Shown: piece after piece, positions 4,686-28,586 of the stretch | Numbering within the stretch: position 1 is the stretch's first letter | Layout: every line of letters starts with the position of its first letter | Source of the DNA: a virus | DNA: 30,510 nt | Virus record (IMG/VR): IMGVR_UViG_3300009082_000047 | Span: 1-30,510 of that record | Reading direction: 5' to 3' (one strand) | The notes under the pieces: generated by a model | What the model was told of the DNA's origin: nothing | What the model saw: only the letters and a program-made list of their open reading frames with translations | The model's database searches: none | Position numbers and translations under genes: made by a program

Positions 4686-5107
4686 TATTGTGCCGTTTCG
4701 GTCAGATCGTTGGTGACCAGGCTCAGGTCGGTATAAACCCCGACCGTGGTGAGCGCGTTGGTGATCCGCAGCCAGAAAGGAAATGCGCTTCCCGTGCTGC
4801 TATTGATCGTAGTGCCAATGGCCAAGCTGGCGCCAGCAGTCGCGGCGGTAAGCGCGCCCTGGCTGGTGGCGAGCTTGATTGCCGTGTTGGGTTCGCCGGA
4901 ACCGCTATTTGAATCGGTCGGGGTAATGGTGATCGGATCGGTGCCCGGCGTGCTGGTAGCTTGCACCTTGACGCTGCTAGTCAAAGACCCAAACCAAAGC
5001 TGAATGTCGCCAGAATCCGCACCAGCAAAGGTAAATGTTATGGGGTTATCGGCGTCAACTGGCTGAGTCAATGCGCTATCGAAGAAAAAACCAAAGGTGA
5101 TTGCCAT
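4685..5107 (-). CDS. Beta-rich tail accessory protein
   Basis: 140 residues from ATG 5107, which lies one base after the preceding stop; a TTG further upstream would overlap the hub gene and is less likely. The sequence (MAITFGFFFDSALTQPVDAD at the start) is Thr/Ser/Ala rich and beta-like, resembling small domains that decorate tail tips. It sits between the RCC1-tip fusion and a 98-residue gene in a tightly coupled block. Function inferred from context only. Confidence 0.65.
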   Translation of the reverse strand: MAITFGFFFDSALTQPVDADNPITFTFAGADSGDIQLWFGSLTSSVKVQATSTPGTDPITITPTDSNSGSGEPNTAIKLATSQGALTAATAGASLAIGTTINSSTGSAFPFWLRITNALTTVGVYTDLSLVTNDLTETAQ

Positions 5108-5108
5108 G

Positions 5109-8099
5109 TCAGGCTCCAATCGTCAGGGTAAGCGGATTCGAGGCTGTGACAATGCACGTGCGCTCATCCGATATGGTTTTGATTGCCGGTGCACTACGGT
5201 AATTTTCATAAACGCGCGGCATGGTCACTTTGAATCCGGTTTGCGGGAATTCCCATCCGACGGCGTAATATGGGTTTTCAACCTGGACGGTGATGCCAAG
5301 CGTGAAATTGACGACGCTGAGATATTCCGGCGCGTTGACCAGATAGCCGTTGTAATTTTCGCTCCAGCTATGGTTGGTCACGCTGCCGACGTAACGTGAC
5401 AGCGTTGGCAAATCCATCACCCATGTGTCATCAATCCAGCCTTCCGCATCGTCCGGGCCTGGCCCCCATACGGGCGGCGGTGGTGGGGTTTGCAGCACGG
5501 TATTGGTTGCGCCGCCAACTGCGCCCACGCCATTGACCGCCAGGGTCAGCGTTGTTTTTGCGCTGCCTGCATCAATGTCGATCAGGTGCTGGATGCGCGC
5601 AATCTTGCCGCTGGCATCAATGGAATCTGTATCGATGCTGGCGTAATGGATCAGGTCGATCTCCGGCAGGCACGGAATATCGAAGTTGACGCGGCATGTG
5701 CGATGGCTTTGCAGGATTTGGCGTTGTGCCATCATGCACAATGTCTTGATGGCTTCGTCGGCGATCGTGCGATCCTGTGTTCCGGCATAGTCTACTTCTT
5801 CCGTTGTGGCATCTGGCGTAGTGATGGTCCAGTCGCGCTCCCATTCGCCAGGATCCCAATCCGTCGAAACCGCGCCGCGCAGTTCTTTTTCCCGATAGCC
5901 GAAGGTTTGCGCGCTGCTGGCGCACGTTACTGTGATCTCGTATTGCTCAGTGAATGGCTGCGCATGCCGCTGGCCTAGTTCAGCGACCATTGAGCCGCAA
6001 GCGGTTTGCGTGCCAACATACCACCAGTCGCCGTTTTCAACTTGGCCGCTTGGCGCACTGGTTTTTACATATTGGTATCCGTAGTTATAGGATGCGCTGA
6101 TCGGTTCCCAGTCAACACCCTCGACGGCAGATTTGACCGCATCAATCGATGGGCTTTGATAGCCGGAGGCTAGCGAGTCGGTGCCGCCGATGATCGTGTT
6201 CGCCCAGGCGATATAGGCATGCCGCTCGCGGCAGCGATGCTGGCGATATTCAAAATCAATGATCACCTTGTTGATGATGTCGGAGCGTTGCGGCAGATCA
6301 ATGCTAATGCTGGCATCAAATATATCGGCGGCAGCAAATGTACCCCAGCTCGCGCTTCCGGCAAATGAAGTTGACCTGAGTTGGCCATAAACCCCAGCAT
6401 CGAGCGCGCCGCTGACGCATTCCATGCGCGCCTGCGCATAATCCCATCGATCCGCCGCAGCCGCACCCAACGCACCGGGTGAATAATCCAGGGCCAGCGA
6501 GTTATAGGTCAGCGCATCAATTTGGTCGATGCTCAATGCCGATAACTTGTTTTTAAGGTCGTCATGGCAAGACAGTATTATCAGCCCGGCAACGGGGTCG
6601 AAGTTGGCAATTTCAACCACGCCGGTAAATATCCGGGTTGGAACCTGCACGGCATCAATTACCCTGATCAGATTGATAACGACCTGCGCGCTCAATAAAT
6701 CAGCGGGGTCGAGTTCACCCGACGCCGGGAAAAACGCAAATTCGGCGGTGCGCGCGGCGGCTTCTTCCGCATCGATGCGGATTGCGCCAGTCAACCTGGC
6801 AGAGATATCTACGCCACCCAGTGTGATTCCGACGGTCCAGGCAGTTGTATCAAGATCATCAACGACGGCCACGCGCATGGCTGCCACGGCGGTTCCGCTG
6901 CTACGCACGTTGACTTTGACCGGCGCGCTGGCGGTTCCGTTTTGATGGCCGACCGTAACGGATATCGGTGCTGTTGCGTTATATGCTTGGTCAACCGTGA
7001 TGGTGATCGGAGCAAAAGCGTAACCTTGCGCTAATTCCGTTAAAAACGCAGCTTGCTGCACCAGATAAACGGAATCAACATCGTAAAGCAGAGACAGATT
7101 GGTAAATGTTTGGACATTAACGCTATCGCCTGTCCCTAAAACGCCATTTTGGTTGTACCCAACAATATAAACATCATGTTCAGAGTTGATTGCTATTGCA
7201 GATAGATATCCGCTGTCAACATCCAACCAGTTATTTGACGACCCTATTTGAACCAAAGAAAGTTGGTTTGTTTCGCTTCCGGTGCCAAGCCCATATAAAT
7301 ACCCTCTACCGCACGCCCACAACGTGCCGTCTGATTTTATTGCGTGGGTGATGTAATAGCCTGCGGAAGCCTTTATCCATGTCGTTCCAGACCCTATCTG
7401 CGTCGGCCTAAATAAAGTCGGCCCGTCAACACCTTGGCCGCACTGACCGAAATCTTGTTTTCCCCATGCCCATAATGTACCATCACTTTTTACGCCGATG
7501 ACGTGGCTATAATTGTGCGAAACAGATGACCAGTTAGTGGATGCAGAATATTCTTGAACCATCGAAGATCGGTCAGTATCTTCGGTATTGTCTCCATTTA
7601 GGCCAAAGTAACCGTCACCACATGACCACAACGTACCGTCTGATTTTATTGCGTGGGTATTCAGATAACCCGCCGTCACATTTTCCCATGTGGTCAGTGA
7701 CCCTACCTGGGTCAAGGTGCTGACCGGCGAGGTTGTGTTGCCGAGTCCGCATTGTCCGTCAGTGTTTCGGCCACACGTCCACAATGTTCCATCCGCTTTG
7801 ATGGCAGCCATGTGGTTATCGCCAAGCGACACGTCAACCCAAGTATTTACGCTCCCAATCTGTGTTGGCGTGGTGTAGCTCGCATTTGGCAGCCCAAACA
7901 CGTTGTAATCGTTGTCTCCCCAGGCCCACAACGTACCATCAGACTTGATTCCGGCACCACCTTTATTGCCAGACGCTAATGTTTTGGAAACTATTTTTTT
8001 CCATTCTCCAGACAACGCGGAAAATGTTGTGCGCGCCGTGTTGTCACCAAATCCAAGATCATAATCAGCATTCGGCCCGCACGCATAGATCGTCGGCAT
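5109..8099 (-). CDS. Tail-tip/hub protein with N-terminal RCC1-type beta-propeller
   Basis: 996 residues. Residues 1 to about 350 contain seven copies of an RCC1-like unit, six with a core such as AIKSDGTLWACG or AIKADGTLWTCG and the first at the N-terminus (MPTIYACG). Seven units match a closed seven-bladed propeller. The rest begins with a linker of beta repeats (APITITVDQAY and related) and continues as a long phage tail-tip-like region (TVGITLGGVDISARLTGAIR, then DFEYRQHRC and a Trp/Tyr-rich C-terminus). The gene abuts the previous stop exactly. The propeller DNA is AT-richer than the hub part, so the fusion may be recent. Adsorption or hub role is inferred from position after the tape measure. 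Confidence 0.8.
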   Translation of the reverse strand: MPTIYACGPNADYDLGFGDNTARTTFSALSGEWKKIVSKTLASGNKGGAGIKSDGTLWAWGDNDYNVFGLPNASYTTPTQIGSVNTWVDVSLGDNHMAAIKADGTLWTCGRNTDGQCGLGNTTSPVSTLTQVGSLTTWENVTAGYLNTHAIKSDGTLWSCGDGYFGLNGDNTEDTDRSSMVQEYSASTNWSSVSHNYSHVIGVKSDGTLWAWGKQDFGQCGQGVDGPTLFRPTQIGSGTTWIKASAGYYITHAIKSDGTLWACGRGYLYGLGTGSETNQLSLVQIGSSNNWLDVDSGYLSAIAINSEHDVYIVGYNQNGVLGTGDSVNVQTFTNLSLLYDVDSVYLVQQAAFLTELAQGYAFAPITITVDQAYNATAPISVTVGHQNGTASAPVKVNVRSSGTAVAAMRVAVVDDLDTTAWTVGITLGGVDISARLTGAIRIDAEEAAARTAEFAFFPASGELDPADLLSAQVVINLIRVIDAVQVPTRIFTGVVEIANFDPVAGLIILSCHDDLKNKLSALSIDQIDALTYNSLALDYSPGALGAAAADRWDYAQARMECVSGALDAGVYGQLRSTSFAGSASWGTFAAADIFDASISIDLPQRSDIINKVIIDFEYRQHRCRERHAYIAWANTIIGGTDSLASGYQSPSIDAVKSAVEGVDWEPISASYNYGYQYVKTSAPSGQVENGDWWYVGTQTACGSMVAELGQRHAQPFTEQYEITVTCASSAQTFGYREKELRGAVSTDWDPGEWERDWTITTPDATTEEVDYAGTQDRTIADEAIKTLCMMAQRQILQSHRTCRVNFDIPCLPEIDLIHYASIDTDSIDASGKIARIQHLIDIDAGSAKTTLTLAVNGVGAVGGATNTVLQTPPPPPVWGPGPDDAEGWIDDTWVMDLPTLSRYVGSVTNHSWSENYNGYLVNAPEYLSVVNFTLGITVQVENPYYAVGWEFPQTGFKVTMPRVYENYRSAPAIKTISDERTCIVTASNPLTLTIGA

Positions 8100-11815: not shown

Positions 11816-12099
11816 TCCAGCGTCAGCCGGGTGATGCCGGTGCCATCCGGCTCGATGGCGCGGACGGTATAGGCGACGGCATTGATCGTGATAGTCTGGC
11901 CATTGGCAACCGTCGCCAGGTCATCCGTCTTGGCGACCAGTTCAGGCGAGGTGGACATTATCCCCATCTGCGCGCCGCTCGGCTTCGACAGGATGCCGCT
12001 GACCACGGCACCACTTTCCAGCGTGGCCGCGACATTGGCCAGCGCGCCAATGCAGGCGGCGTTGATGCTAGATTCGATGACGGAGAAGTATATACCCAT
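11812..12099 (-). CDS. FII-like head-tail connector protein
   Basis: 95 residues. The C-terminal half (STSPELVAKTDDLATVANGQ then TITINAVAYTVRAIEPDGTG) parallels lambda gpFII, which ends SPSLFVRTDE...LRRGDTLTIGEENFWV...PDDGG. FII bridges head connector and tail. The start at ATG 12099 is fixed by the 57-bp repeat whose last base is the A of this start region; only weak Shine-Dalgarno pairing is visible within the repeat. Overlaps gpU by ATGA. Confidence 0.75.
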   Translation of the reverse strand: MGIYFSVIESSINAACIGALANVAATLESGAVVSGILSKPSGAQMGIMSTSPELVAKTDDLATVANGQTITINAVAYTVRAIEPDGTGITRLTLE

Positions 12100-12153
12100 G
12101 CCGCCAGACTAGGCCGGCGGTGTGACCTTATGCGGCCCGATTCGTCACTTTTT
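12097..12153 (-). repeat. 57-bp leader repeat, copy 1 (upstream of FII-like gene)
   Basis: Direct repeat with one mismatch to 22753-22809. In gene sense it begins right at the stop of the preceding gene (AAAAGTGAC...), contains the inverted repeat GTGAC...GTCAC (17-nt interval) and CCGCC...GGCGG (10-nt interval), and ends with the ATG of the next gene. See copy 2. Confidence 0.9.
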
Positions 12154-22207: not shown

Positions 22208-22755
22208 GCAAACCTCGCCACGATGCGCGTTTTGTAGATGCCGCTCGCTTTTTGTTCTTCGCGGGAGACTTCCAGCTTGAATTGCGTGCGCATCTGCATC
22301 AGGCGATCCTTGTCGCGGCTGATGTTGCGGTCGCCGGTGCTGGCGCTGATCATGTCGAGCTGGTCGCCGGTGGCGCGCGATTCCAACGCGGCTTCGATGG
22401 CTTCCAGCATGCGGCGGGCAAAGCTGCGGCCATCATGCAAGGCATCTTTGGCCAGGTTCGGCAGCAGCGTAAAGCGGCCCGCATCGGCCTCGAAGCGCTC
22501 GGTGGCGGATTCGATCACGGCCAGCCAGTCATAAACGCCAGCCACCAGCGCCGCGGTGGTGGCTTTGGCGACGGTGACGGCATAATTGGCGCCGTCTGCG
22601 CTAGCTACTACGTCAAACTTGGCGGCAGCGCTGCGAAAGTAATAGGTCAGCGTCCACAACGAAGCCGGAAAGTCGGCCAGGTCTTCGCGTCGCCATTGCC
22701 AGGTATCGCCGCAGCGGGCTGAAGTGGGTTCTGTCGTGGGGATGGTTTGCGCCAT
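22204..22755 (-). CDS. gpW-like connector with N-terminal beta domain
   Basis: 183 residues. The C-terminal ~80 residues (GRSFARRMLEAIEAALESRA, then RDKDRLMQMRTQFKLEVSRE) resemble gpW-type connectors, with a helical hairpin and R-x-x-L-x-x-x-R pattern. The first ~100 residues are a beta domain (DTWQWRREDLADFPASLWTL). It is immediately upstream of the portal, as gpW is of gpB. Its start at ATG 22755 is the end of the 57-bp repeat. gpW assignment is by layout and helix pattern. Confidence 0.7.
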   Translation of the reverse strand: MAQTIPTTEPTSARCGDTWQWRREDLADFPASLWTLTYYFRSAAAKFDVVASADGANYAVTVAKATTAALVAGVYDWLAVIESATERFEADAGRFTLLPNLAKDALHDGRSFARRMLEAIEAALESRATGDQLDMISASTGDRNISRDKDRLMQMRTQFKLEVSREEQKASGIYKTRIVARFA

Positions 22756-22809
22756 GCCGCCAGACTAGGCGGGCGGTGTGACCTTATGCGGCCCGATTCG
22801 TCACTTTTT
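22753..22809 (-). repeat. 57-bp leader repeat, copy 2 (upstream of gpW-like gene)
   Basis: One mismatch to copy 1 (12097-12153). It contains two inverted repeats (GTGAC...GTCAC and CCGCC...GGCGG) and ends at the ATG of the gene that follows. The second hairpin abuts or covers the ribosome site. Both downstream genes encode neck/head-tail connector proteins. Outside it, flanks do not match. Confidence 0.9.
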
Positions 22810-22811
22810 GG
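22800..22811. repeat. 12-bp direct repeat at left edge of the accessory island
   Basis: GTCACTTTTTGG here is repeated at 24335-24346 in the same orientation. The left copy is the end of the 57-bp repeat; the right copy contains the stop of the Mor-like gene. Joining the two would restore a simple Mor-like-stop/leader junction without island DNA. Confidence 0.8.
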
Positions 22812-22843
22812 CGGTGGCCTTGTAGATCATTGATACTTGACTT

Positions 22844-22860
22844 CTAACATGCGTTAGAGC
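22844..22860. other. attC remnant / cassette boundary box
   Basis: The string CTAACATGCGTTAGAGC contains a GTTAGAG box (22853-22859) and a facing CTAAC (22844-22848). ATGC before GTT matches the ATGC before the GTTGGGC box in the complete site at 23110-23164. It is the boundary whose complement, with 10 bases (GTTAGAGCGC/GCGCTCTAAC), is the other outer box of that site. Confidence 0.6.
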
Positions 22861-23089
22861 GCACGCGAGCGGCCTTCATCCTCACGCGAATCTGTGCCAG
22901 TTCGTTGCCGTTAATCGGTTCCTCGTCTGCTGCTTCATCAAGCGAGAGTGCGATGTTCGTCCGAAGCCACGCATTCATCATTTCGCCAATCTCGCCCCAT
23001 CCGTCCGCATGGCGCTCGATCAGTTGGAACGCGATAGCCCCATCCATTCCTGCCCATTGTTGTTTCTTGTCCGCTTCTTCTGGTGTCAT
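22844..23089 (-). CDS. Island gene A, cassette-like hypothetical protein
   Basis: 81 residues, MTPEEADKKQQWAGMDGAIA..., start at ATG 23089 with GGAG seven bases upstream. Acidic and helical, without membrane segment. Reading ends with RSNAC and a TAG at 22844-22846 just beyond the attC-like outer box GTTAGAG (22853-22859). Genes that read into an attC box at the 3' end are typical of integron cassettes. Function unknown; typical of cassette ORFs. Confidence 0.65.
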   Translation of the reverse strand: MTPEEADKKQQWAGMDGAIAFQLIERHADGWGEIGEMMNAWLRTNIALSLDEAADEEPINGNELAQIRVRMKAARVRSNAC

Positions 23090-23109
23090 ATTCTTTCTCC
23101 GTAAATGCG

Positions 23110-23164
23110 CTCTAACCAGTCATTCAAGCGGGACGCTGCGCGCCCCTTAATTCATGCGTTGGGC
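23110..23164. other. attC: attC-like integron recombination site (complete)
   Basis: 55 bp. Outer boxes CTCTAAC (23110-23116) and GTTGGGC (23158-23164, a match to GTTRRRY). Inner arms TTCAAGCGGG (23123-23132) and CCCCTTAA (23143-23150) pair with one extrahelical C, as in canonical attC sites. Plus-strand order RYYYAAC-like box, TTCAAG, hairpin, CTTAA, GTTRRRY is that of canonical attC. Crossover expected between G23158 and T23159. The left box is the perfect 10-base complement of 22853-22862, the start of the same cassette. Confidence 0.75.
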
Positions 23165-23391
23165 GTCATGTCCTCTGCGTCCATTTCTTCGGCCGTTACA
23201 ATCGTTGTCATCGTCGTATTTGGCACACGCTTGCGCCCTTTGAATTGCGCACCTGTAACGCGCATCGCGTTACAGTCTTTAGGTGTTTTACCGATCCATC
23301 CAGCCGCAAAAATTTCAAATCCTTCCGGCACAGCTCCAAACTTCTTTAATGCCGCTTTGCCGTAGCTTGTTCTGCTCATCACATCGTCCAT
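23152..23391 (-). CDS. Island gene B, cassette-like hypothetical protein
   Basis: 79 residues from ATG 23391 (MDDVMSRTSYGKAALKK), preceded by GGAG six bases upstream; a TTG at 23403 would add four residues. Product has a motif PEGFEIFAAGWIGKTPKDCN and a segment TGAQFKGRKRVPNTT. Ends TPNA with TGA 23152-23154 inside the attC arm. Basic core and acidic end. Family not recognised; size and location are typical for a cassette gene. Confidence 0.65.
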   Translation of the reverse strand: MDDVMSRTSYGKAALKKFGAVPEGFEIFAAGWIGKTPKDCNAMRVTGAQFKGRKRVPNTTMTTIVTAEEMDAEDMTPNA

Positions 23392-23410
23392 TTCAATCTC
23401 CAATCATCAA

Positions 23411-23497
23411 GCCCAACAAACCAATCAAGCGGGACCGGCGAACATCCTGCGCGGTCTTGGCTGGCCGCATCACGCCGGCCCCTTCCAGCGGTGACAA
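23411..23497. other. attC: Degenerate attC-like site
   Basis: Box GCCCAAC (23411-23417) is the exact complement of the GTTGGGC start of cassette B, as expected for the same cassette. Inner arms AAGCGGGACCGGCG (23427-23440) and CGCCGGCCCCTT (23473-23484) pair with an extrahelical C. The last box reads GTGACAA instead of GTTRRRY, so this end is decayed or has been recombined. Loop contains a further GCGG/CCGC stem. Confidence 0.6.
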
Positions 23498-23534
23498 GAC
23501 ACCGTGCCCGCCACGAAATAAATGCAAAAAGTTC

Positions 23535-23562
23535 TTGCGTTCTTTTGTTTTGTGTGTATAAT
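23535..23562 (+). promoter_or_regulatory. Sigma-70-type promoter for the plus-strand island genes
   Basis: A perfect TATAAT (23557-23562) is preceded by TTGCGT (23535-23540) with a 16-base spacer and AT-rich DNA around. Predicted start near 23569, about 58 bases before the first ATG. It points against the surrounding operon. Confidence 0.65.
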
Positions 23563-23626
23563 TCAACTCATGGGGTGCAGATTGCTTCCCTTCCGCGCCT
23601 CGGGATATCAGGGGTAGGAGTTGAAA

Positions 23627-23884
23627 ATGACCAAATCTGTTAACCCCCTCTGGACCGCCTACAACAACCTGTTTAACGAGGGCGGCGAAGGCTACAACCC
23701 CCACGACCAATACATCACCACTGGCGCCGGCGAACCTGAGTGGTCCAAGCTTGATGACCGCAAATATCGCCTGATGTGGAAAATGGAAGGTACGTCCACT
23801 TCTGATCCGCGCTACGCCGAGATGGAAAAAGAGGTCGAAACTCTGACCGCCGCCATCAAAATCGCGCAAGCCGCAAACATCTGA
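23627..23884 (+). CDS. Island gene C, plus-strand moron protein 1
   Basis: 85 residues from ATG 23627 with AGGAG six bases upstream; a TTG at 23621 is the only longer choice. NPLWTAYNNLFNEGGEGYNP, then WSKLDDRKYRLMWKMEGTST and a helical C-terminus (AEMEKEVETLTAAIKIAQA). Opposite strand to the late operon, with its own promoter, so expressed independently. No recognised domain; candidate lysogeny-expressed or defence/counter-defence moron by analogy only. Confidence 0.7.
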   Translation: MTKSVNPLWTAYNNLFNEGGEGYNPHDQYITTGAGEPEWSKLDDRKYRLMWKMEGTSTSDPRYAEMEKEVETLTAAIKIAQAANI

Positions 23885-23896
23885 GCGGAGGCGGCC

Positions 23897-24304
23897 ATGA
23901 CACACAATCAACGTGGCCGCCTTACCGTCGATCTTGGCGGTAACTGGCGGTGGTATGCCAACATCATCCCGGCTGGAAGCAAGTGTCTGGGCACCGTCAC
24001 CACCCAGCACGGCGAAACAGGGGCGCTCATATTTACCGCATATGGCATTTACGCCAGGCTCAACGCCGGAGCGCTGGTGTCCCTGCCACAAGCCAAGGTG
24101 CAGGCCGCTGTTGAGGCGGCGCGCTCTGGATCGCATGGCGGGCCTGGTCGCGGTCAGGGCATCACGGCAGCGGATGGTGCTACCGGCCTCAAACGCCGCA
24201 ACATCAGCATTGACGACGCAAGCGCGGACACCCTGCGCCAGTTCGGCGACGGCGATTTGTCCTTGGGTATTCGGCGTGCTGCTGCTCATATCAAATCCCT
24301 CTAA
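23897..24304 (+). CDS. Island gene D, plus-strand moron protein 2
   Basis: 135 residues, ATG 23897 after a 12-base gap from gene C with CGGAGG upstream, so both share a transcript. Reads HNQRGRLTVDLGGNWRWYAN, TQHGETGALIFTAYGIYARL and KVQAAVEAARSGSHGGPGRG, then DTLRQFGDGDLSLGIRRAA. Looks like a small globular beta domain followed by a Gly-rich linker and a helical end with an RRAA tail. Function unknown. It ends with ...CTC TAA C, part of a possible third attC half-site. Confidence 0.7.
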   Translation: MTHNQRGRLTVDLGGNWRWYANIIPAGSKCLGTVTTQHGETGALIFTAYGIYARLNAGALVSLPQAKVQAAVEAARSGSHGGPGRGQGITAADGATGLKRRNISIDDASADTLRQFGDGDLSLGIRRAAAHIKSL

Positions 24305-24322
24305 CTCTGCGCTTAAGCCCTC
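24298..24322. other. Possible attC half-site at the end of gene D
   Basis: CTCTAAC followed by TCTGCGCTTAAGCCC resembles the left half of an attC site (outer box then stem with CTTAAG). The stop of gene D lies in the box. No matching right half is seen, so it is a remnant at best. Same box sequence as the left box of the complete site at 23110. Confidence 0.35.
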
Positions 24323-24334
24323 GTTTCAATCTTG

Positions 24335-24346
24335 GTCACTTTTTGG
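24335..24346. repeat. 12-bp direct repeat at right edge of the accessory island
   Basis: GTCACTTTTTGG, identical to 22800-22811. It covers the last codons and stop of the Mor-like gene (minus strand AAAAAGTGA...). Confidence 0.8.
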
Positions 24347-26431: not shown

Positions 26432-27027
26432 TGTCCGGTTTTCAACAACGTCGAATACGGCACCCGAATCCGCGCGTTGAACACGCGCGCGGCTTGCGGG
26501 TTGTTGTCCAGATCGGCGCGGCTGGTGATGCCGCAAATCATGCGGACGGCAGCGGCGGCGGTTTTGGCGGCAGGATAGCCCAGGTTCAGCGCGTGCCATT
26601 CGGCGGCGAACGCGTGCGCCAACCAGGATTGAAAGAGCGGATCGGCGCACAACATCGCCGCCAGCAGCGCCAGCGGTCCGCCTTTGGGTTTCTCGCTCAG
26701 GTCTGCCGCTGCGCATGCAGGCGCAGGATTTCCGCTTTCAACGCTTCCACCCTGCCCTGCACCATCGGCATCTTCGGGTATTCCTGCCGGCGCCACAGCG
26801 GCCAGCCCAACACCAGCCGCGCTTCGGTTTCCAGCCGCCAGTCCGGTGTCCAGGTCGGGGATGGCGTCGCGCAGCACTGTGGGCACAAACAAGGCATCGG
26901 CAAGCCCTTTCTGGTAAGCGGCCTCAACGACGTGCATCAGCGCGGCGTCGAGGCTGTGGGGTTTGCTGGCGTTGCTGGCCAGGTAGTCTGCGAAGTCGGC
27001 GCGGACCAGGTTTAGGTCGAGGGTCAT
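26428..27027 (-). CDS. Conserved phage protein, function unknown
   Basis: 199 residues from ATG 27027 (overlap with the methyltransferase stop, ATGA). N-terminal helical part (MTLDLNLVRADFADYLASNA), a Gly/Ala-rich middle, and a C-terminal conserved-looking segment (WLAHAFAAEWHALNLGYPAA, then CGITSRADLDNNPQAARVFN) that resembles a tail found in several phage proteins with CGI-x-SR-x-ELD wording. Not identified. Its position between methyltransferase and large terminase suggests a packaging-related or DNA-modification role. Confidence 0.65.
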   Translation of the reverse strand: MTLDLNLVRADFADYLASNASKPHSLDAALMHVVEAAYQKGLADALFVPTVLRDAIPDLDTGLAAGNRSAAGVGLAAVAPAGIPEDADGAGQGGSVESGNPAPACAAADLSEKPKGGPLALLAAMLCADPLFQSWLAHAFAAEWHALNLGYPAAKTAAAAVRMICGITSRADLDNNPQAARVFNARIRVPYSTLLKTGQ

Positions 27028-28586
27028 GTCGGGAATTCCGCGCCGGTGGCGGCGTGAATCGCGCGACGGCCGGTGTATTGCTGCCAGCGGCGGACGATCA
27101 CGTCGCAATACTTTGCCTGCATTTCCATTGTGTAGCAGACACGTCCAGTGGTTTCGGCACCGATCAGCGTGGAACCAGATCCACCGAATGGCTCGGCGCA
27201 CAAGCCGCCGGGCGGAAGGCTGGAACGCATTACGCGCTCCATCATGGCCACCGGCTTTGGCGTGGCATGTCCGTGGCGTTCTTCTCCGGTTACACGAGTA
27301 AATTCCCAAACGTCCGTCATGCTGTCATGGGTGTTGTCGAAGTAAGCGCGGGTGGCGTAGAAGTCGCGCTTTAATGCGTAGAAGTCGCGCTTTAATGCGT
27401 CGTGGTCGCGCTTGAAAGCGTCGTGGTCGCGCTTGAAAGCGTCGTGGTCGCTGGCGGCGGCTTGTATCTTGGCGTAATGCTCCGCAGTAATTAGTGCCCA
27501 TTGGCTTTTTGTTACCCAATGTTTAGCCATTTGCGTGCCGGTGATATGGTTAAGGTCTTTTACCGTCCATCCGGCGCGCTTCATTTCGCCTTCAATGTAG
27601 GTTCTGACAGGCTCCCAGCCTTCCCAATAGTTGTCGGCATTGGTGTTAAATCCTTGCTCCCCAAGCATGAAAAATATGCAACGCTCTGTGGGGTGAAACA
27701 TGCGGCGAGATTCCAGCGGGACGCCAGAAACAAGCATCGTCGGATTGTCTTCACGTTTATCCCATGTAATTTCGTTCCTGATCGTCATCCGTTCCGATGA
27801 TTCCAGGCCACCGCGCCACCATAATCGCCACAGGTCTGGCGAATTTCCCCAGATGTAAACGCTGGCGTTGTCTTCGGTAGCTGCGCGAAATGCGCGCCAC
27901 CATTGCATTTGGAAGGCGTCAAGTTTTCCGGCATACAGGTTGTCATTGGCTACGCCATCGGCTTCCTTCCCCATGCCATAAGGCGGGTCCGCGTGAATCA
28001 ATTGCGCTTTTTTTCCATTCATCAGTAGCGCCACGCTGCCCGCGTCGGTGCTATCTCCGCACATAATCCGATGCTTTCCCAGCAGCCACACGTCTCCCGG
28101 CTGCGTGACCACTTCGGCCTGCACTTCCGGAACTGCGTCGGCGTCGGTTTCGCCTTCCGGCGTGGCGTCAAGTTGCGCCAGCAGTTGGTCGATGTCGCCC
28201 AGTTCAAATCCGGTCAACTCCAGGTCGAAGCCGAGTTCGCCTAAATCCTTCAGTTCCAGCGCCAGGATGTCTTCGTCCCATCCGGAATTAAGCGCCAGTT
28301 TGTTGTCGGCGATGATGTAGGCGCGCTTTTGCGCGTCGCTCAGATGCGACAGGCGGATGCACGGCACCGTATCCATGCCGAGGCTTTGCGCGGCCATGAC
28401 GCGGCCATGCCCGGCGATGATGCCGCCATCGGCGTCGATCAGCACCGGGTTGGTGAAGCCGAATTCACGGATCGATGCGGCCACCTTGGCGATCTGCTCC
28501 GGCGAGTGCGTGCGGCTGTTGCGGGCGTAGGGGGTGAGCGCGCCGATGGCGATGTGTTCGATGTGCTGGGCGGTGGGTGCGGTCAT
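27024..28586 (-). CDS. ParB-domain fused DNA methyltransferase
   Basis: 520 residues. Residues about 5-100 are a ParB/Spo0J-type nuclease-like domain (ADGGIIAGHGRVMAAQSLGM, then PCIRLSHLSDAQKRAYIIAD). Then a type II methyltransferase: catalytic DPPYGMG at about residue 200 and AdoMet motif FGGSGSTLIG near 475, so motif IV precedes motif I (beta group). Between them, about residues 375-410, five 7-residue repeats (DHDAFKR x2, DHDALKR, DFYALKR, DFYATR) interrupt the core. Modifies phage DNA, probably to evade host restriction. Confidence 0.85.
   Translation of the reverse strand: MTAPTAQHIEHIAIGALTPYARNSRTHSPEQIAKVAASIREFGFTNPVLIDADGGIIAGHGRVMAAQSLGMDTVPCIRLSHLSDAQKRAYIIADNKLALNSGWDEDILALELKDLGELGFDLELTGFELGDIDQLLAQLDATPEGETDADAVPEVQAEVVTQPGDVWLLGKHRIMCGDSTDAGSVALLMNGKKAQLIHADPPYGMGKEADGVANDNLYAGKLDAFQMQWWRAFRAATEDNASVYIWGNSPDLWRLWWRGGLESSERMTIRNEITWDKREDNPTMLVSGVPLESRRMFHPTERCIFFMLGEQGFNTNADNYWEGWEPVRTYIEGEMKRAGWTVKDLNHITGTQMAKHWVTKSQWALITAEHYAKIQAAASDHDAFKRDHDAFKRDHDALKRDFYALKRDFYATRAYFDNTHDSMTDVWEFTRVTGEERHGHATPKPVAMMERVMRSSLPPGGLCAEPFGGSGSTLIGAETTGRVCYTMEMQAKYCDVIVRRWQQYTGRRAIHAATGAEFPT
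27355..27452 (-). repeat. In-frame 21-bp tandem repeat in the methyltransferase gene
   Basis: Units at 27355-27375, 27376-27396, 27397-27417, 27418-27438 and a partial 27439-27452. They encode D-x-x-A-x-K-R heptads and are in frame, so copy number could vary without breaking the gene. The first two are identical to each other, and the next two are identical to each other. Confidence 0.85.

Follow-up and report, generated by a model that had tools for sequence, protein, structure and literature searches.

The late operon of the phage studied here contains an insert of about 1.5 kb that we take, with good probability, to be the decayed remains of part of a phage integron cassette array, whose parent was a phage integron lineage with inverted cassettes. 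The window, that is, the whole stretch of DNA analysed, is a phage record from IMG/VR, a linear fragment 30,510 bases long. A broader proposal, which we favor but hold less firmly, is that phages own an integron lineage: a separate integrase clade beside a phage int gene, with arrays read backwards from a phage promoter and small cargo genes that are swapped, several of which match DNA methylases, Mom or the Acb2/Tad1 family. The window would then hold an array of this kind that had entered the late operon and since decayed. Among the gene-capture devices of bacteria, integrons are the best known, and those seen in phages have, to our knowledge, been regarded until now as rare strays. If phages do have an integrase clade of their own, and arrays that go with it, they would be regular users of integrons, and such a lineage would be a possible route for the movement of cassettes between bacteria.

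The Insert in the Late Operon

The region under study lies between the late-activator-like gene and the head-tail joining gene, in the following setting.

26716-24611, minus strand: terminase large subunit
24734-24336, minus strand: late-activator-like gene
24335-24346, plus strand: right one of two copies of the 12-bp direct repeat GTCACTTTTTGG, located at the activator gene's 3′ end
22800-22811, plus strand: left copy of the same repeat
22755-22204, minus strand: head-tail joining gene
22207-20675, minus strand: portal, followed by the capsid gene on the same strand

A relative of the window phage, L117, has a portal 91% identical to that of the window and the same gene order, with just 28 nt between the activator and joiner genes; the whole insert is absent from it. 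Homology between the two breaks at about 22798 and 24367. The repeat GTCACTTTTTGG has two copies only in the window, one per insert edge (22800 and 24335), and the insert itself extends from about 22812 to 24334. Relative to this empty-site relative, the block is evidently an insertion. A second contig, L002, which is 99.9% identical to the window over 10 kb, has the same insert, with no gaps, which argues against the insert being a chimera. A permissive Rfam scan of the window gave no attC-type family and nothing else of use, and neither a tRNA nor a tmRNA was found near the site.

On the plus strand, the order of elements is a start box GTTAGAGCGC (22853), cassette 1, attC1, cassette 2, attC2, a third cassette, and the left half of attC3.

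22854-23158, plus strand: cassette 1, with its own R″ GCGCTCTAAC at 23107-23116
22844-23089, minus strand: gene A, 81 aa, inverted in cassette 1
23110-23164, plus strand: attC1, complete
23152-23403, minus strand: gene B, 83 aa as listed, inverted in cassette 2
23411-23496, plus strand: attC2, degenerate
23515-23630, plus strand: conserved promoter-leader (..TATAATTCAACTCATGGG.TGCAGATTGCTTCCC..), with many invariant columns against four other phage loci
23621-23884, plus strand: p87, a small ORF of 87 aa
23897-24304, plus strand: p135, 135 aa, with a C-terminus that is ribbon-helix-helix-like by eye
24299-24322, plus strand: attC3, left half only (R″-L″), CTCTAACTCTGCGCTTAAGC

Identity and Condition of the attC Sites

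To examine the sites, 60 attC-like sites of other viral contigs were aligned, the window and its near-copy being excluded, and a covariance model, R1, was made from them. Since the pattern for collecting these sites was derived from the window's own site, R1 is centred on the attC subtype of the window. In its alignment, 91.5% of stem cells are paired, and the covariation score is 0.226, against 0.091 for shuffles and at most 0.068 for slid alignments. An earlier note, made from the letters of the window, had claimed a complete attC-like site at 23110-23164 with GTTRRRY and paired arms, and this is what R1 finds: attC1 scores 56.5 bits (E=3.3e-15) over the full model length. It has both the R″/R′ and L″/L′ boxes, with L″ TTCAAGCGGGAC, L′ GCGCCCCTTAA and R′ GTTGGGC on the plus strand, the last of the GTTRRRY form, and an extra base in L″. 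Its 28-base core pattern has one match in the window and zero in 100 shuffles.

The second site, which the same note had placed at 23411-23497 with the same arm geometry, is a genuine attC that has been damaged. R″, L″ and L′ are present and R1 gives it 21.6 bits (E=3.8e-4); the GTTRRRY box at R′ has been lost, and the R″/R′ pairs are broken in the alignment, so that attC2 is not a complete attC site but one with a broken right side. The best R1 score in the rest of the 30.5-kb window is 10.5 bits (E=1.3). The left half of attC3 scores 16.1 bits with a left-half matrix and ranks fourth among all window positions on both strands. Another left-half match, at 4892 on the minus strand, lacks a right half and was taken to be a chance match. 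At the left edge of the array, GTTAGAGC at 22853, there is no full attC; an attG insertion was considered there, and this would be one example only.

The single-strand folding energy of the sites is unexceptional against shuffles (z = +0.3 for attC1 and +0.5 for attC2). The case for attC sites is therefore one of sequence and covariation, not of stability, and on that footing we regard the identity of the window sites as established. There is no doubt about the subtype itself because, with R1, Methylotenera, Methylobacillus and relatives are seen to carry dense arrays, and all six tested bacterial genomes with the window's attC subtype encode a full-length integron integrase.

Cassettes 1 and 2 Carry Their Genes Backwards

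In each of the first two cassettes, the start box is complementary to the cassette's own R″, over 11 nt in cassette 1 and 7 nt in cassette 2, a complementarity to which the earlier note had pointed; R″ and R′ within attC1 agree in only 3 nt. This own-cassette match is the footprint expected when circular cassettes insert at G^TT beside other cassettes. Genes A and B both begin just after R″ and end inside or slightly past the neighboring R′ box. For gene A, the ribosome-binding site is just within R″ and the stop codon is 9 bp past the cassette boundary. Gene B probably starts at the ATG at 23391. Compared with its relative in L003, gene B has a pS of 0.75 and a pN of 0.17, and it is therefore a real gene on the minus strand, under purifying selection.

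The direction of the array, left unresolved in the earlier note, is now settled: the attC sites are on the plus strand, and genes A and B, which do sit between the sites on the late-operon strand inside the phage late operon, are inverted. They depart in this from the usual, though not absolute, rule that a cassette gene runs in the same direction as its attC. The relatives of gene B are early genes or regions of other phages (L003 and L004), and R1, at E up to 1, finds no attC near them in the sequence examined. Gene B offers a starting point for asking how cassettes arise from free phage genes, a question that integron biology has yet to answer. Nothing in Pfam, NCBIfam or PHROGs assigns a function to gene A, gene B or p135, the one match of gene A being weak (phrog_6494, antitoxin, E=0.024), and the part of these libraries with which p87 was compared gave none for it either.

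The Third Cassette

The genes of the third cassette (23621-24304) run in the ordinary direction, on the plus strand. Four further phage contigs, of which three also have attC sites, encode proteins 67-72% identical to p135. A complete attC lies directly 3′ of p135 in L123; L124 and L125 have attC sites on the plus strand to the left of the p135 region and on the minus strand to the right. The AlphaFold model of p135 is too poor for a structure search (mean pLDDT 57). No relatives of p87 were found, though its neighbors are conserved. A sigma-70 scanner reported no promoter ahead of p87; a TATAAT block there is nonetheless invariant in five loci.

The promoter-leader is about 90% identical among the window, L122, L123, L124 and L125, and a conserved p135 gene ends the layout. 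The slot between the two holds a differing small ORF in most of them (the window, L122, L123 and L125). In L124 there are two small ORFs in the slot, of which the second is common to L125, and the leader is partly repeated before it.

The p87/p135 cassette is like the Acr-Aca operons of phages in having its own promoter, a variable small ORF and a conserved DNA-binding-like partner. It is tempting to propose, from this layout, p87 and the ORFs that replace it as candidates for a role in counter-defence. The likeness is one of layout only, since the libraries used contain no known Acr or Aca sequence that matches the cassette.

The Window Is CALIN-Like

Neither an integron integrase nor a tyrosine recombinase was found in the window record, a 30.5-kb linear fragment, and the window does not show the intI and attI adjoining an array that make a complete integron. 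It does have at least two attC sites with no nearby integrase, as a CALIN has, with one site degenerate and the record a fragment. The earlier note was therefore right that no integrase gene is present, and its suggestion of a CALIN-type array carried by a phage finds support. Since attC1 is the sole intact site, the array is probably frozen unless an integrase works on attC1 in trans. We infer that the window holds a mostly immobile, intI-less remnant of a phage-integron-type array, and that this damaged array belongs with a broader group of integrons in phages whose cassettes are inverted.

Integron Integrases of Phages

Four attC-bearing viral records encode an integron integrase above the curated cut-off. 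L254, a 43-kb record that also has terminase GpA, carries tail, endolysin and phage integrase genes, then IntI, and then attC sites. L255 carries tail, holin and endolysin genes, a phage integrase, IntI, attC and p135, all in one contig. Such relatives of the window array are phage integrons in the sense of a full-length IntI over the curated cut-off with an attC array in a phage genome.

An alignment search returned 261 viral stretches with integrase relatives, of which 80 were kept. In a matched test, with a single attC model built jointly for phage and bacterial loci, attC sites were found at 47 of the 80 phage intI loci and 35 of the 43 bacterial loci. The topology is canonical, with attC 5′ of intI on the opposite strand, for 156 of the 161 sites in phages and for all 170 in bacteria. 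Beyond intI, the first gene of any size encodes a phage tyrosine integrase at 28 of the 48 phage loci and a serine recombinase at 3 of them; neither follows intI in the 24 bacterial loci among the families listed (25 of 49). A terminase or portal gene occurs in at least 20 of the 44 records with intI and attC, three families having been searched.

In a tree of 127 integrases, 68 of the 81 phage sequences form one clade with a support of 100, the phage set having been selected by similarity to a phage IntI, which favors a tight clade, from records that are partial metagenome contigs. A smaller tree gives the same picture. The sequences and trees together make a strong case for a phage-specific integrase clade with intI next to a phage int gene. 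Four phage sequences outside the main clade are near-identical to the class 1 IntI1. Among isolated phages, no integrase more than 60% identical to the one tested was found, the matches being distant or class 1 integrases.

The viral contigs whose integrase is near-identical to class 1 IntI1 are L321, L322, L324 and L326; either phages carry class 1 integrons here or, possibly, the contigs are misassigned. A divergent integron-integrase-like gene, annotated xerD, is present in Virus Rctr41k (KX853513.1), in a one-strand operon of small genes; an HMM found no attC in that genome.

Exchange and Inversion in Phage Arrays

When the longest ORF between consecutive attC sites is taken, viral contigs have 33 inverted and 11 canonical cassettes (44 decided), and bacterial contigs of the same attC type have 11 and 103 (114 decided; p=1.9e-15 against viral). 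At the matched intI loci, the phage cassettes are 45 inverted to 14 canonical and the bacterial ones 6 to 102 (Fisher p=9e-22); orientation was assigned by ORF length, which left 48 of 107 phage cassettes undecided, and about a quarter of the decided ones are canonical. Counted per locus, inverted to canonical is 19:4 for phages and 0:28 for bacteria (p=1.8e-10).

The start box in viral arrays matches the cassette's own R″ over a mean of 3.8 nt beyond GTT, and over at least 4 nt in 37 of 64 cases, while the controls give 0.98 nt within a site and 1.0 nt for random pairs. The viral sites are therefore exchanged cassettes, more than hairpins. As read from these alignments and counts, both the signature of cassette exchange and the orientation bias of the phage arrays appear firmly established. 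Such consistent inversion indicates that cassette orientation follows promoter or recombination context.

The inverted phage cassette genes encode proteins with a median length of 114 aa (n=39). Matches in Pfam and PHROGs include DNA methyltransferases, a Mom-like protein, PAPS reductase and an exonuclease, with a weak match to Acb2/Tad1 (E=5e-4); most of the inverted genes have no match in these two libraries. The matched cargo hints at a store of counter-defence genes.

Why Are the Genes Inverted?

Bottom-strand selectivity is required for the correct orientation of a cassette at attI, so that Pc expresses its gene (PMC8946536, a review). An array read from its far end would need the opposite orientation. 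We propose that plus-strand attC cassettes were assembled through an integron-integrase-type exchange at G^TT, with genes A and B carried backwards in two of the three cassettes and thus transcribed along the phage operon; the third cassette would have brought a variable small ORF and p135 under their own promoter. The parent system would have had a phage-clade intI beside a phage integrase gene, normal attC topology, and most of its cassette genes inverted. Most likely, its array would be read from a phage promoter at the far end towards intI and int, and not from a Pc at attI. Reading from the far end fits the phage layout, because the cassette genes, intI and the phage int are all co-directional. 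The cassette block would later have entered the late operon, with genes A and B again co-directional with the operon, and two sites would then have been lost.

A tentative alternative, which concerns the inversion step only and which we rate as possible but the less probable account, is that inversion puts the recombinogenic bottom strand of attC on the non-template strand, where transcription would make it single-stranded, and that it does not serve expression from the phage promoter. The substrate of IntI is the bottom strand in its folded form, and recombination is limited by how far that strand is exposed as single-stranded DNA (PMC8946536); where genes are inverted, it would be the operon's non-template strand. 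It predicts, though, the same orientation as expression from a phage promoter does.

Phage Lineage or Captured Bacterial Array?

We consider it improbable that the block is an ordinary bacterial CALIN fragment, acquired by the phage from a host integron through illegitimate recombination and owing nothing to a special phage system. The attC subtype is present in host-type bacteria, the 12-bp repeat at the insert edges suits illegitimate recombination, and such CALINs are described by Qi et al. 2023 (PMC9892861). Yet bacterial arrays seldom have genes in the inverted direction of A and B (6 of 108 decided), the relatives of gene B are early phage genes, and those of p135 are phage genes as well, one of them sharing its contig with IntI and attC. 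The sedentary chromosomal integrons of Betaproteobacteria (Methylotenera, Methylobacillus and relatives) are like the phage arrays in attC subtype, in the topology of intI and attC, and in own-cassette complementarity. They differ in that 102 of 108 decided genes run with the attC strand, their integrases fall outside the main phage clade, and no phage integrase follows intI among the families listed.

Less probable still is that the attC-like hairpins are phage boundary elements, for RNA processing or short-homology exchange at gene starts, never recombined by IntI: a phage site does lie immediately ahead of the next gene's ribosome-binding site (with the start a median of 16 nt from R″) and the window record has no IntI, but the own-cassette match of R′ and R″ is a footprint of site-specific exchange at G^TT, and 47 of 80 phage intI loci have such sites beside intI in canonical topology.

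The proposed phage integron lineage also differs from the reverse integrons of spirochaetes, in which it is the intI gene that is flipped with respect to the array. There, intI and the cassette genes are co-directional, as in phage integrons; in the phage integrons, the topology of intI and attC is normal and only the cassette genes are turned.

Integrons and CALINs were reported in 21 phages by Qi et al. 2023 (PMC9892861), and 5 of 6 tested phage attC sites worked with IntI1. In that paper, complete phage integrons look like captured host or class 1 pieces, and the arrays of TJE1 and PH101 are called typical. The window resembles those phages, some of which have no integrase, in having attC sites and cassettes; neither a phage-specific IntI clade beside the phage int nor inverted cassettes are described in the sections considered. 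Phage integrons and CALINs are therefore already published. What appears to be new is the phage-specific lineage with backward-read cassettes, inasmuch as neither the integrase clade, nor its place beside the phage int, nor the inversion rule was found in the open-licence literature searched.

Other Features of the Window

A 58-bp sequence occurs at 12096-12153 and 22752-22809 (57 of 58 positions identical), ahead of two late genes. One copy spans the region where the head-tail joining gene starts and, at its end, runs into the left of the two direct repeats that flank the insert. The sequence holds a CCGCC..GGCGG inverted repeat, found in L117 too. At 5109-8099 on the minus strand, a 996-aa tail-region protein has N-terminal RCC1-like repeats, ACGPNADYDLGFGDN.. 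and WAWGDNDYNVFG.., recognized by eye. A short tandem repeat at 27363-27451 (minus strand), within the gene at 27024-28586, encodes KRDHDAF/KRDFYAL repeats.
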